DNA of 64,000 bases from Planosporangium mesophilum (GTDB lineage: Bacteria > Actinomycetota > Actinomycetes > Mycobacteriales > Micromonosporaceae), in the NCBI RefSeq assembly GCF_016863255.1, contig NZ_BOON01000043.1:1-64000 (forward strand). Direction: 5' to 3'. Below the pieces are notes generated by a model. The model made no database searches, was not told the DNA's origin, and saw nothing but the letters and a program-made list of their open reading frames with translations. Positions 42,127 through 49,377 of this stretch are shown one piece after another (position 1 is the first letter of the stretch; every line of letters starts with the position of its first letter). The position numbers and the translations under genes were made by a program.

Positions 42127-42552
42127 TCAGCGCTCGCCGCCGTCGCGGCGGCGCAGCGTCGCCACCGCCGAGCCGGCGAGGGTCATCAGGCACTGGGGCA
42201 GCTTGCCGTCGGCGATGGCAGCCCCGAACAGCGCCTCCCCGCTGGCGTCGTCGGCGTTGGCGTACGCGCTCAGGAACCGCGCCACCCACCGCTTGTCGTA
42301 GGGGGCCTCTTCGATGCCGGGGAACTCCAGCCGCCACGGTCCGGCGACTATGCCGTCACCGACCGTGGCGCCAGCCAGGCTCCACGCGACCTCGTACGCG
42401 CCGGTCACGCCGGAGCGGACCGCCGCCTTGTCGAACGCGTCGACCACGCCGTCGCCGTCTCCGGCCAGCGCGGAGCGCAGCACGAGCGCGACGTCGTCGA
42501 ACACGTCGTCCGGTTGGGCTTCCACGTTGCGCAGCGTATCCGTCACCGTCAA
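42127..42552 (-). CDS. Hypothetical protein
   Basis: A 141-residue acidic helical protein (DDVFDDVALVLRSALAGDGD, KRWVARFLSAYANADD). I do not recognise the family. It converges on the purC-side gene. The acidic, soluble composition and clean start MTVTDTLRN suggest a real gene. Confidence 0.6.
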   Translation of the reverse strand: MTVTDTLRNVEAQPDDVFDDVALVLRSALAGDGDGVVDAFDKAAVRSGVTGAYEVAWSLAGATVGDGIVAGPWRLEFPGIEEAPYDKRWVARFLSAYANADDASGEALFGAAIADGKLPQCLMTLAGSAVATLRRRDGGER

Positions 42553-43139: not shown

Positions 43140-44513
43140 ATGCGGCGTGTCACCCGCCCCGTATCGACTGTTGCCGCGGTGGCCGCGGTGCTGCTCGCGG
43201 CGAGTTGCGGCACCTCGAAGCAGCCCGAACGCGGAGCGAGCGGGGACAGGGGCGACGGTCAGGTCCGCCTGTACGGCTCGGACGGCAACATGAGCAGTTC
43301 GTTCGGCGACGTCCTCAAGGACCAGCAGGGCGTGCTGGCCGGCATGAAAGGGACCGCGCCGCTCTCGCCGCTCACCGAGGAGTTCAAGCGGCGGATCCGG
43401 GGCGTCGACCCGAGCGTGCCCGACTTCAACTACGCCGGTGAGGCGTACGACGCGGTCATCGTCTCGGCGCTGGCGGCCGAGGTCGCGCGCTCCACGGACG
43501 CCTCCACGATGGCGAAGAACATCGTGGGCGTGACCGTGGGCGGCACCGAATGCGCCAGCTTCCAGCAGTGCGCCGCCCTCGTACGGCAGAACCAGAACGT
43601 CCAGTACCGAGGGGTGTCCTCACTCAAGCGCAGCGGCTTCACGGACGCCGGCGAGCCGTCCACCGCCACCTACGGCACGCTCAACTTCGGCCGGGACAAC
43701 CACATCGACGACGCCAAGACCGAGTTCGTCGGTGCCGGTGACGAGTCGACCGCGAGCAGGAACGCTGCCGCGCCCGCGCCGTCCACGCCGCCCGGCAGCG
43801 GCCGCGCCCCGAAGGCGCCGCCGCTGAAGTTCGGCGGCCTGCTGCCGCACACCGGCGCACTCGCCAGTGCCGGTCCGCCGATCTTCGCCGGCGGGAAGCT
43901 CGCGGTACAGGAGATCAACGAGGCCGGCGGGGTGCTGGGCCAGCCGGTGGAGTGGGTCGACGGCGACGACGGCACCAGCGCGCAGACCGCCGTGATAACG
44001 GCCGACAGGTTCATCGCCGCCGGCGTACAGGTGTTGATCGGCCCGGCCGCCTCCACCGCCGCCGCCGCGGTAGTTCCCAAGGCGGTGGCGGCCGGGCGTA
44101 TCGTCTTCTCGCCTACGGCGACCTCGGAGGGGCTGTCCCAGCTCGACGACAAGGGCCTGTTCTTCCGTACCGCGCCCTCGGACAAGCTGCAGGCCAAGGC
44201 CCTGGCCGACGTCGTGATGCGGGACGGCGTCTCCAAGGTGGTCGTCGTCGCCCGCGACGACGAGTACGGCACCGGCCTGCGCAACGGCATCCAGGCCGAC
44301 CTGACCGGCGCGGGGATCAAGGCGAGCAACATCAAGGTGCTGTCGTACAAGGTCAAGGACAAGTACGACGTCGCCGACCAGACCGGCCAGTTCGGGCCGC
44401 TGGCCAAGGCCGTCAAGGAGTTCGGGGCGGACGCGGTGGTGATCATCGGGTTCGAGGAGTCCGCCCTCTTCGTCAAGGCGCTGCGCGACGAGCAGCTGGT
44501 CCCCGGGTCCTAG
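43140..44513 (+). CDS. Circularly permuted type I substrate-binding lipoprotein
   Basis: A 457-residue lipoprotein (lipobox LLAASC, Cys23) with GGAGGGGAG before the ATG. Family parts are in swapped order. Residues 42-199 (VRLYGSDGN, YAGEAYDAVIVSALAA, Cys138/Cys144, LNFGRDNHID) are the usual C-terminal part of a Leu/Ile/Val-type binding protein. A Pro/Ala/Ser linker (about 200-228) follows. Residues 229-457 (LKFGGLLPHTGALASAG, GLFFRTAPSDKLQAKAL, ARDDEYGTGLRNG) are the usual N-terminal part. The C-terminus ALRDEQLVPG would continue directly into VRLYGSDGN in normal members. No permease genes are adjacent. Confidence 0.85.
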   Translation: MRRVTRPVSTVAAVAAVLLAASCGTSKQPERGASGDRGDGQVRLYGSDGNMSSSFGDVLKDQQGVLAGMKGTAPLSPLTEEFKRRIRGVDPSVPDFNYAGEAYDAVIVSALAAEVARSTDASTMAKNIVGVTVGGTECASFQQCAALVRQNQNVQYRGVSSLKRSGFTDAGEPSTATYGTLNFGRDNHIDDAKTEFVGAGDESTASRNAAAPAPSTPPGSGRAPKAPPLKFGGLLPHTGALASAGPPIFAGGKLAVQEINEAGGVLGQPVEWVDGDDGTSAQTAVITADRFIAAGVQVLIGPAASTAAAAVVPKAVAAGRIVFSPTATSEGLSQLDDKGLFFRTAPSDKLQAKALADVVMRDGVSKVVVVARDDEYGTGLRNGIQADLTGAGIKASNIKVLSYKVKDKYDVADQTGQFGPLAKAVKEFGADAVVIIGFEESALFVKALRDEQLVPGS

Positions 44514-44615
44514 GGGCGTCACGACCGTGGCCTCGGGACCATACTGAGGCGCGACGTTGTGACGATCATCGTGATGGGTAAGTGTCGACCGGTGGACCCC
44601 CCGAGAGGAGTTCGG

Positions 44616-44855
44616 ATGAGCGACAGCGTGGAGACCAGGGGCGACGAGCGGAACGACCTGGTGGTGAAGGACGCCAACAACGACGGCAGGCCGGACCTGT
44701 GGGTCGTCGACACCGACGGCGACGGCAAGCCGGACGTGTTCCAGTTCGACACCGACGGCGACGGGAAGGTCGACATCACGATCGTGGACCGTACCCAGGA
44801 CGGCCAGCCCGACGAGGTGATCGACGGCGACGGCGGGATGCCACCGCGGACCTGA
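44616..44855 (+). CDS. Small Asp-rich repeat protein (putative Ca-binding)
   Basis: A 79-residue protein with four or five tandem units of type D-x-[DN]-x-D-G (DANNDGRPD, DTDGDGKPD, DTDGDGKVD, DRTQDGQPD, DGDGG), spaced about 13 residues, like thrombospondin type-3 or EF-hand-loop repeats that bind calcium. No signal peptide or membrane segment, so probably cytoplasmic. ATG 44616 follows GAGAGGAG. Function unknown. Confidence 0.72.
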   Translation: MSDSVETRGDERNDLVVKDANNDGRPDLWVVDTDGDGKPDVFQFDTDGDGKVDITIVDRTQDGQPDEVIDGDGGMPPRT

Positions 44856-48059: not shown

Positions 48060-49256
48060 CTACCCCAGCGTGGTCAGCGGCGTCAGGACGACGTTGGACA
48101 GCACGCCGCCGTCCCGGCGCACCTGCCGTAGGTACCACATCTGCAGCGGGGTGCGGTTCTGGTTGAACTGCCACGGACCGCGCGGGCTGTCGATCGACCC
48201 GATCTTGCCGAGGGCCAGGTTGACGGCCTGCGGTGTGAGGGTGTCCCCGTCCACCGCGGCGATCGCCTTGTCCAGTACCGAGGCGGCGTCGTAGGAGGCC
48301 ATCGCGTACGAGGTGGGGGCGGCGTTGTGCGCCTTCTGGTACGCCGAGGCGAACCGCCGGTTGGCGTCGTTGTCCAGGTCGGACGAGTAGTTCATCGAGG
48401 TGTAGATCTTCTCCGCGGCGGAGCCCTGGTCCCGCAGCACGGCGCCCTCGGTGAGGAAGCCCGGCGCGTACAGGTCCTGGGGCAGGTTCAACTGCCGGTA
48501 CTGCTTGACGAACTCGACCGCCTGTGCGCCCGCGAAGAAGCAGAGCACGGCCTTGGCACGGGAGTTCCTGATGCTGGCAAGGTAGGGCTGGAAGTTCATG
48601 GTCGGGGTCGGGGTGAACGGCGTGTAGATGGGCGCGCCCTCGACCTTGTCGCCGTACGTCGACAGGAACCCTTCGATCTCGTCGTGCCCCGCCTGGTAGT
48701 CGGGCGCGATCAGCGCGACCGAGCCGTTACCGATCTTGCTCGCCACGTACCGGCCGAGGGCCTTGCCCGGCTCGTCGTTGACGAACGAGGTGCGCCAGAT
48801 GTACCGGACGCCCTGAAGGGTGGTCGGTGAGGCGTTGGAGCCGATCAGCGGGGTCTGTGAAGCCTCGACAAGGTCGCGAACCGCGGCCATGGTGGCCGAA
48901 CTGGCCACACCGGACAGCGCCAGTACCTTCTCCTGCTTGATCAGACGCTCGACGGCGGCCTTGCCGGACTCGGCGGTCTCGCCCTCGTCGACGGTGATCA
49001 GGTTGGCCGGCCGGCCGCCCAGGCTCTTGTTGTTGAGGCTCAGGTACAGGTCGAAGCCCCGGCTCAACTCGTCGCCGATCGTCTTGTACATGCCGGACTG
49101 CGGCACGACCAGCCCGATCCTCACGGGATCCAGGGTCGTGGCCGACTGCCGGTCCCCGCTGCCGATGCCGCAGGCTGACAGGATGGGCGCCGCGGCCCCT
49201 CCGACGCCGAGCGCGGCGAGAAGTCTGAGCGCCTGCCGGCGGGTGAGCTCGGACAA
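48060..49256 (-). CDS. ABC-type substrate-binding lipoprotein (amide/branched amino acid type)
   Basis: A 398-residue type I binding protein in normal order: signal with RR and lipobox (LTRRQALRLLAALG, ILSACG), IGLVVPQSGMYKTIGDELSR, GVRYIWRTSF and YDAASVLDKAIAAVDGD. TTG 49256 is chosen as start because GGAGG lies five bases upstream; longer versions put the signal peptide too far inside. Related to UrtA/AmiC-like sensors. No transporter genes adjoin, so it may be an orphan binding protein. Confidence 0.87.
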   Translation of the reverse strand: MSELTRRQALRLLAALGVGGAAAPILSACGIGSGDRQSATTLDPVRIGLVVPQSGMYKTIGDELSRGFDLYLSLNNKSLGGRPANLITVDEGETAESGKAAVERLIKQEKVLALSGVASSATMAAVRDLVEASQTPLIGSNASPTTLQGVRYIWRTSFVNDEPGKALGRYVASKIGNGSVALIAPDYQAGHDEIEGFLSTYGDKVEGAPIYTPFTPTPTMNFQPYLASIRNSRAKAVLCFFAGAQAVEFVKQYRQLNLPQDLYAPGFLTEGAVLRDQGSAAEKIYTSMNYSSDLDNDANRRFASAYQKAHNAAPTSYAMASYDAASVLDKAIAAVDGDTLTPQAVNLALGKIGSIDSPRGPWQFNQNRTPLQMWYLRQVRRDGGVLSNVVLTPLTTLG

Positions 49257-49377
49257 GTGATCCTCCACAAGGACGGCAGGGCCCAGCCAGTACCCGACCC
49301 CGATGCGCGTTCTACCCGCTTTCTCGGTGAGCGTCAATCCGCTGCCACATGGCGGTCGTCTCGCGACCGCGTCGTGC

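Follow-up and report, generated by a model that had tools for sequence, protein, structure and literature searches.

The question raised by the gene at positions 43140 to 44513 of the window (the whole stretch of 64,000 nucleotides of Planosporangium mesophilum DNA analysed here, from contig NZ_BOON01000043.1) is whether its product is a type I substrate-binding lipoprotein with its two parts in reversed order and, if so, by which route and how often such a swap has come about. Our analysis indicates that the 457-aa protein is very probably a naturally circularly permuted type I (Peripla_BP_6, LIV/HAAT-like) substrate-binding lipoprotein, the arrangement being real, old and conserved, and its relatives suggest several separate origins of the swapped order. 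The order that is the norm in the family, N-part followed by C-part, is absent: residues 42-199 (C-part) lie ahead of residues 228-454 (N-part), both bounded by profile, which makes the protein a permuted variant of the PF13458 family (Table 1).

Table 1. Features of the lipoprotein gene in the window
Feature	Position	Strand	Remarks
Gene of the type I substrate-binding lipoprotein, very probably circularly permuted	43140..44513	+	457 aa plus stop, ATG start, ORF open throughout
Signal peptide, lipobox LAAS-C, lipid-anchor Cys23	43140..43208	+	Read by eye
N-terminal spacer of the mature protein, residues 24-41	43209..43262	+	
Usual C-terminal part, residues 42-199, placed first	43263..43736	+	Starts at strand VRLYGSDGN; D48 conserved
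Pro/Ala/Ser linker, residues 200-227, from old C-tail to old N-terminus	43737..43820	+	Variable
Usual N-terminal part, residues 228-454, placed last	43821..44501	+	PF13458 profile 1-212
New C-terminus, PGS-stop	44502..44513	+	Cut site 1, the loop read through by canonical homologues

The original prediction of an intact signal peptide and lipobox agrees with our reading of the sequence by eye, and Cys23 is invariant in 8/8 proteins (the window protein and its relatives); the LAASC lipobox presumably deviates slightly at position -3 from the Gram-positive lipoprotein consensus. In its native order the protein matches Pfam PF13458 at residues 228-450 only, over profile positions 1-212 of 343 (E 8.4e-33, 114.9 bits, above the gathering cut-off of 31.7 bits), while swapping the halves in silico yields one continuous PF13458 stretch over profile positions 1-312 (E 1.8e-36, 127 bits). 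For annotation, this means that a profile search detects only the N-part of such permuted proteins. The same swap extends the ANF_receptor match from 7-200 (91 bits, the better of two native stretches) to 7-329 (106 bits), and the alignments to solved structures from 25-172 (68.4 bits) to 25-315 (69.6 bits) for 4mlc, from 12-211 (56.0 bits) to 12-309 (60.5 bits) for 4n0q, and from 8-166 (64.4 bits) to 8-303 (61.9 bits, a lower score) for 4gnr. Since the gain in score is modest, the case for permutation is not based on the scores. The Pfam and PDB matches are of the PF13458/LIV kind, with no sugar-binding family among them.

A genome search uncovered unpermuted homologues in further families belonging to the same taxonomic order, and 20 canonical loci were chosen because this search showed both halves as separate matches. 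In 20/20 of them, a single reading frame contains matches to both halves of the window protein, arranged in canonical order, with 35-46% identity for the N-half (best E 5e-55) and 32-47% for the C-half (best E 5e-41), which rules out chance similarity of the halves. A canonical seam reads straight through, for example '...GFEESAKIITRMHEVGIGP-SDG-MKVYGVDGNMGN', where the permuted protein ends in '...GFEESALFVKALRDEQLVPGS' followed by the stop and begins, after signal peptide and spacer, with 'QVRLYGSDGNMSS', also given as 'VRLYGSDGNMSS'. The canonical seam reads through the permuted end and start, so the join that had been proposed, in which the C-terminus and the mature N-terminus meet seamlessly in normal members, is correct; likewise, the unpermuted homologues and the profile boundaries bear out that the usual C-terminal part comes first and the N-terminal part second. 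It could be argued that two unrelated domains have been fused, or that a truncated binding protein has acquired an unrelated N-terminal domain, and the C-part taken alone does give a weak Pfam match (ANF_receptor PF01094, 232-329, E 0.004). The same C-part, however, matches that of the unpermuted homologues at the identities given above, with E down to 5e-41, and in another family, f41 (families, genera, genomes and loci are given by our own handles), the permuted C-part is up to 64% identical to canonical ones of its genus. Being homologous to the C-part of canonical proteins, this region leads us to reject a fusion of unrelated domains, to which we assign a negligible probability.

The window contig belongs to a draft assembly of 103 contigs and tandem copies exist at some loci, both of which would favour an artefact of assembly or annotation, with two tandem genes collapsed or wrongly joined. 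The permuted order is nevertheless found in 7/7 relatives' loci in Planosporangium and Dactylosporangium genomes, one of them on the complete chromosome of Dactylosporangium vinaceum, and family-wide in the Micromonosporaceae (f1), where 243 of 354 genomes match at E<=1e-40, all collinear among the matches listed. Among the matches listed, the order recurs across many genomes, quite a few of which are assembled as a single contig. The frame is conserved and both parts are under purifying selection, with dN/dS values (window versus three loci of its genus) of 0.22-0.36 for the C-part and 0.39-0.54 for the N-part, next to 0.30-1.17 for the linker on 25-28 codons. Because the permuted order is common to relatives, one of them a complete chromosome, and is under such selection, mis-assembly is rejected as hardly credible, and the unpermuted homologues together with the shared order in relatives confirm the circular permutation as a natural one. 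In one genome, G261, the permuted gene stands in two overlapping frames with the C-part first (L066/L070, G261:C76:12860-14160), as the result of either a frameshift or a natural split.

Conservation of the pocket extends over both parts. D48 is kept in 39/39 permuted and 60/60 canonical rows, Y376 and E440 each in 39/39 and 59/60, T328 in 38/39 and 60/60, and S305 in 38/39 and 57/60; we take these residues to correspond to ligand contacts of LivJ/LivK. Since the moved part contributes D48 and the remaining part the other four residues, a site reaching across the seam is kept. AF2 models, built from a shallow 8-sequence input (the window protein plus seven Planosporangium/Dactylosporangium loci), reached a mean pLDDT of 60 and a pTM of 0.54 for the full protein, and 69 and 0.69 for the mature form, the other models of each five being lower, down to 44. 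Foldseek, a sequential aligner, placed Leu/LIV-type binding proteins on top for the AF2 model, over about 200-280 columns, or about one half. By the strand order in these moderate models, the new N-terminus precedes the fourth strand of lobe 2. In the type I fold the N-terminal ends of the strands point away from the cleft, so the anchor is expected at the far end of lobe 2. After lipidation of Cys23, both parts would come together as a single Venus-flytrap closing around a small molecule, for which an amino acid or an amide is the probable candidate, and the effect of the permutation would be that the membrane tether enters lobe 2 and not lobe 1.

The genomic setting was compared directly, using as probes at the fetched loci the neighbours of one canonical f41 locus, which by Pfam are two BPD_transp_2 permeases, two ABC ATPases (one with BCA_ABC_TP_C), an ANTAR response regulator and a pyruvate kinase; the Liv criterion was the presence of at least two of four Liv genes. 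Liv genes lie convergently downstream at 21/23 permuted loci outside f1, compared with 40/46 canonical loci, and the ANTAR gene is found upstream on the same strand at 19/23 and 28/46, respectively. Among 20 later loci, Liv genes are convergent at 3/4 permuted loci (the fourth has another layout) and at 13/16 canonical ones. Given the Liv genes at 21/23 loci, the permuted gene outside f1 occupies the binding-protein position of a Liv transporter. The permuted loci without convergent Liv genes are L155 (G411:C11) and L159 (G573:C4), second permuted copies that lie away from the Liv genes in two f16 genomes.

The Micromonosporaceae differ in this respect: Liv genes are found beside 0/11 permuted f1 loci, window included, and beside 4/4 canonical f1 loci. 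No partner permease or ATPase genes occur among the 10 window neighbours scanned, and the window genome (98.55% complete) holds three matches to the f41 Liv permease, 32-34% identical, with 32% for the best of them. When 17 permuted f1 loci were set against the window, a short ORF at 42127 proved common to 11, a small protein with DxDG repeats to 10 and a 4HBT thioesterase to 6, and five share no tested window gene. The ancestral protein would have fed the Liv importer, and the permuted protein of the Micromonosporaceae, encoded away from the Liv genes, may be an orphan that works with a different permease or in sensing. A canonical homologue stands beside Liv genes in some Micromonosporaceae of genera g16 and g41 (L110, L112, L141-L144). 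On the tree, these canonical f1 homologues group with f4/f34 proteins, apart from the permuted f1 proteins.

Set against canonical LIV/HAAT type I (Cluster B) proteins (PF13458; LivJ/LivK, 4mlc, 4gnr, 4n0q), the window protein is homologous over both parts and has the same pocket-region motifs, and in related families it is likewise a lipoprotein encoded beside Liv genes. It differs in that the order of its parts is swapped at one loop, that its tether enters before the moved part, probably in lobe 2, and that the window copy is without transporter neighbours.

How widely the two orders are spread was followed outwards from the window. An order-wide search (397 genomes, 181 with a match) found the permuted order in f1, in all 66 f16 genomes among the matches listed and in one f13 genome, and the canonical order in f8, f10, f15, f4 and the f1 genera g16 and g41; permuted and canonical copies occur together in genomes G567 and G441. 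A class-wide search (394 genomes, 155 with a match) added permuted genes in four f39, two f49 and one f41 genomes, and a phylum-wide search (296 genomes, 55 with a match) four further permuted genes outside the class. Within f49 (85 genomes, 65 with a match), a collinear permuted gene is present in 11 genomes, all of genus g203, and the other matched genera match half by half, as does one g203 genome, G1191. In family f81 (200 genomes), 115 genomes match at E<=1e-60, with some genera collinear and others matching by halves. One f81 locus has a tandem of two collinear (permuted) matches, both in the same orientation (G1526:C22:10688-13255).

In genus g160 of f41, 82 of 147 genomes match at E<=1e-30 and 9 of them (the query's own included) have the collinear permuted gene, in one case truncated at residue 401. 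The remaining matching genomes align half-wise, with up to 67% identity to the permuted query in the N-half and up to 64% in the C-half. Likewise, the permuted f41 protein L203 lies at a tree distance of 0.63 (N) and 0.72 (C) from its nearest canonical relative, and of 1.40 (N) and 1.76 (C) from the nearest permuted protein of another family. One permutation event looks to have taken place within this genus, and it looks recent since the halves are so similar to those of unpermuted copies in the same genus.

The permuted proteins are cut at two sites. At cut site 1 (f1, f13, f16, f39, f49 and f41) they end within a few residues of the canonical (G)IGP loop and, in nearly all rows shown, start with a strand ending in DGN. 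At cut site 2 (f68, f122 and f81) they end one strand and helix later, with 'GIGPSDVAVYGVDGNMGNALAENFEAGT' before the stop, and their C-part begins about 20 profile positions further on, with '..ELAGMKGTTP'. Of 128 distinct permuted ORFs, 100 end no more than 8 residues from the N-part (L211 and L237 of these at contig ends), 25 have the extra strand, and 3, with 23-residue tails, are unsorted by motif.

Trees were built with the halves put in canonical order, from rows thinned by hand, and were midpoint-rooted without an outgroup; the canonical match L114, on a very long branch (5.8), was excluded from the later ones. The 94-row tree (52 permuted, 42 canonical) needs 4 order changes, 3 of them forced by starred branches, the 79-row tree (35 and 44) needs 5, with 3 forced, and the 99-row tree (39 and 60) needs 5, with 4 forced; these counts are minima and depend on the hand-thinned trees. 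Separate quick trees of the two halves, a check for chimaeras or gene conversion between them, need 5 changes each, of which 3 are forced in the N-half and 1 in the C-half. The wider binding-protein family has the canonical order, which is therefore taken as ancestral, and on this ground and by parsimony the changes are read as gains of the permuted order. From these trees we infer that the permutation arose at least three, and probably four or more, times.

A single ancient permutation in the ancestor of the Liv-locus proteins, followed by many reversions and/or horizontal transfer, would also account for an order as widespread as this one and for the use of the same loop in all six families of cut site 1; moreover, three changes can be read as one gain and two losses, the trees have a midpoint root and lack an outgroup, and the C-half tree on its own forces a single change. 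Yet a single clade of all permuted rows is rejected (lnL 227.5 lower, p-AU 1.4e-43), the permuted f41 genes are nested among canonical f41 genes, there are two distinct cut sites, and many independent and exact reversions would be required, making one ancient event quite improbable. Narrower groupings are also rejected as single clades, namely {f41,f39,f49} (p 4.5e-5), {f1,f13,f16,f39,f49} (p 3.1e-5), {f41,f1,f13,f16} (p 3.2e-76) and {f1,f13,f16} with the cut-2 rows (p 1.75e-4), and a starred branch in the 99-row tree separates f39/f49/f41 from the cut-2 rows. Groups compatible with single events are {f1,f13,f16} (p 0.384), {f39,f49} (p 0.399) and the cut-2 rows (p 0.132). All of these group p-values are optimistic, since every group other than that of all permuted rows was named after the first tree had been seen.

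Repeated origins bring up the route by which the parts changed places. The original prediction was a tandem duplication followed by loss of the outer halves, and several observations fit it. Unpermuted tandem pairs occur at the Liv locus in f31 (L183, L184) and f49 (L267, L268), and at L253 (G1190:C374, 1056-3989) a divergent permuted gene next to the Liv genes has a canonical one directly behind it, in the same orientation. The f41 linker consists of the old C-tail ('yitgqip', canonical 'yiagqi' before the stop), about 15 residues and the old spacer preceding the N-part ('gdGVLTVG', canonical 'kgdGTLTVG'); the linker had been predicted to represent the mature N-terminal spacer, which holds in part, as in f41 it also includes the old C-terminal tail. 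In the proposed sequence of events, the gene would probably have been duplicated in tandem at the Liv locus, the copies would have fused via the old C-tail, the first N-part would have been lost behind the retained signal peptide, and the second copy would have been truncated, without signal and C-part. The loss must fall behind the signal because a lipoprotein has to keep it. No fused N-C-N-C or full C-N-C intermediate was found among 241 distinct ORFs, and on that account the duplication route, despite the fitting tandem pairs and f41 linkers, is proposed by inference. The 23 ORFs called as 'C-N-C' proved to be cut-2 proteins, in which the last 17-19 matched residues correspond to the start of the C profile (9-12 bits).

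Fission of the gene and re-fusion of the two half-genes in the other order would need no duplicated fusion, and G261, with its C-part and N-part in two overlapping frames, could be taken as a stage of this kind. That genome is, however, a single draft case, with the C-part first, and has the appearance of a permuted gene broken by a frameshift; the remaining ORFs with only one half lie at locus or contig edges or are distant binding proteins. Tandem full copies, on the other hand, are present at the locus, and the linkers include the old C-tail. We thus regard fission and re-fusion as unlikely, and tandem duplication as the preferred route.

Permuted periplasmic-binding proteins had been thought to be known mainly from engineering, a view that is contradicted by TpMglB-2 (Tp0684), a solved natural permutation of a type I binding lipoprotein ('Type Ic / Cluster Bc') that still binds its ligand (PMC4990184). 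In the sections consulted, Brautigam et al. raise tethering as a possible reason for the permutation, and describe a cut between strands 3 and 4 of the N lobe that moved the first three strands to the C-terminus, the permuted end being only 13% identical to the matching part of EcMglB; a repeated origin does not come up there (PMC4990184). The window protein is alike in being a natural permutation of a type I binding lipoprotein, but it is of the PF13458/LIV kind where TpMglB-2 belongs to the MglB sugar family (PMC4990184). Its cut, as far as the AF2 strand order suggests, falls between strands 3 and 4 of the C lobe and not of the N lobe, and unlike in TpMglB-2 its N-part (228-454, profile 1-212) stays whole, the cut coming after it. 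By our reading, the two cuts would lie at pseudo-symmetric positions.

Both duplication and fission-fusion are known routes of permutation, exemplified in a review by swaposin, DNA methyltransferases and transhydrogenases, the arrangements of the last having been fused independently and offering a precedent for repeated rearrangement (PMC3320104). As in the duplication cases treated there, the expected route leads from tandem copies through fusion to truncation (PMC3320104). Unlike in those cases, a permuted lipoprotein must retain its N-terminal signal, so that the loss of the first N-part has to fall after this signal, and it is within a single family of binding proteins, at the same operon locus, that the change occurs repeatedly. 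Our search of the open-access literature, with subscription journals mostly outside it, found neither a permuted LIV-type binding protein nor a repeated permutation of a binding protein.

Several separate swaps would be unusual, and with them the reason for such swaps becomes testable. Circular permutation is usually inferred afterwards from distant pairs. In the present case both orders occur next to the same transporter genes, the trees point to repeated origins and tandem copies lie nearby, so that nature has in effect run replicates from which one can learn how permutation comes about, which loops can be cut and whether it is the membrane tether that drives it. Tentatively, and as rather less likely than not, we put forward that a single binding lipoprotein encoded in an operon has undergone permutation in place on at least four and up to six separate occasions, across related families of bacteria and at two adjacent loops within one lobe, because tethering through lobe 2 rather than lobe 1 (or folding of the signal-proximal part first) was repeatedly favoured in lipid-anchored binding proteins.

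Two further genes of the window lie close to the permuted one. Directly after it, at 44559-44855 (+), is a gene for a 98-aa acidic protein with DTDGDGKxD-type repeats, which by eye has a calcium-binding look and which gave no Pfam match; a counterpart lies near the permuted gene at 10 of the 17 f1 loci mentioned above. About 3.5 kb downstream, at 48060-49337 (-), a second LIV-type binding lipoprotein is encoded in canonical order (PF13458 1-342 of 343), and it is weakly similar to the permuted protein, with 32 bits against the N-part profile.
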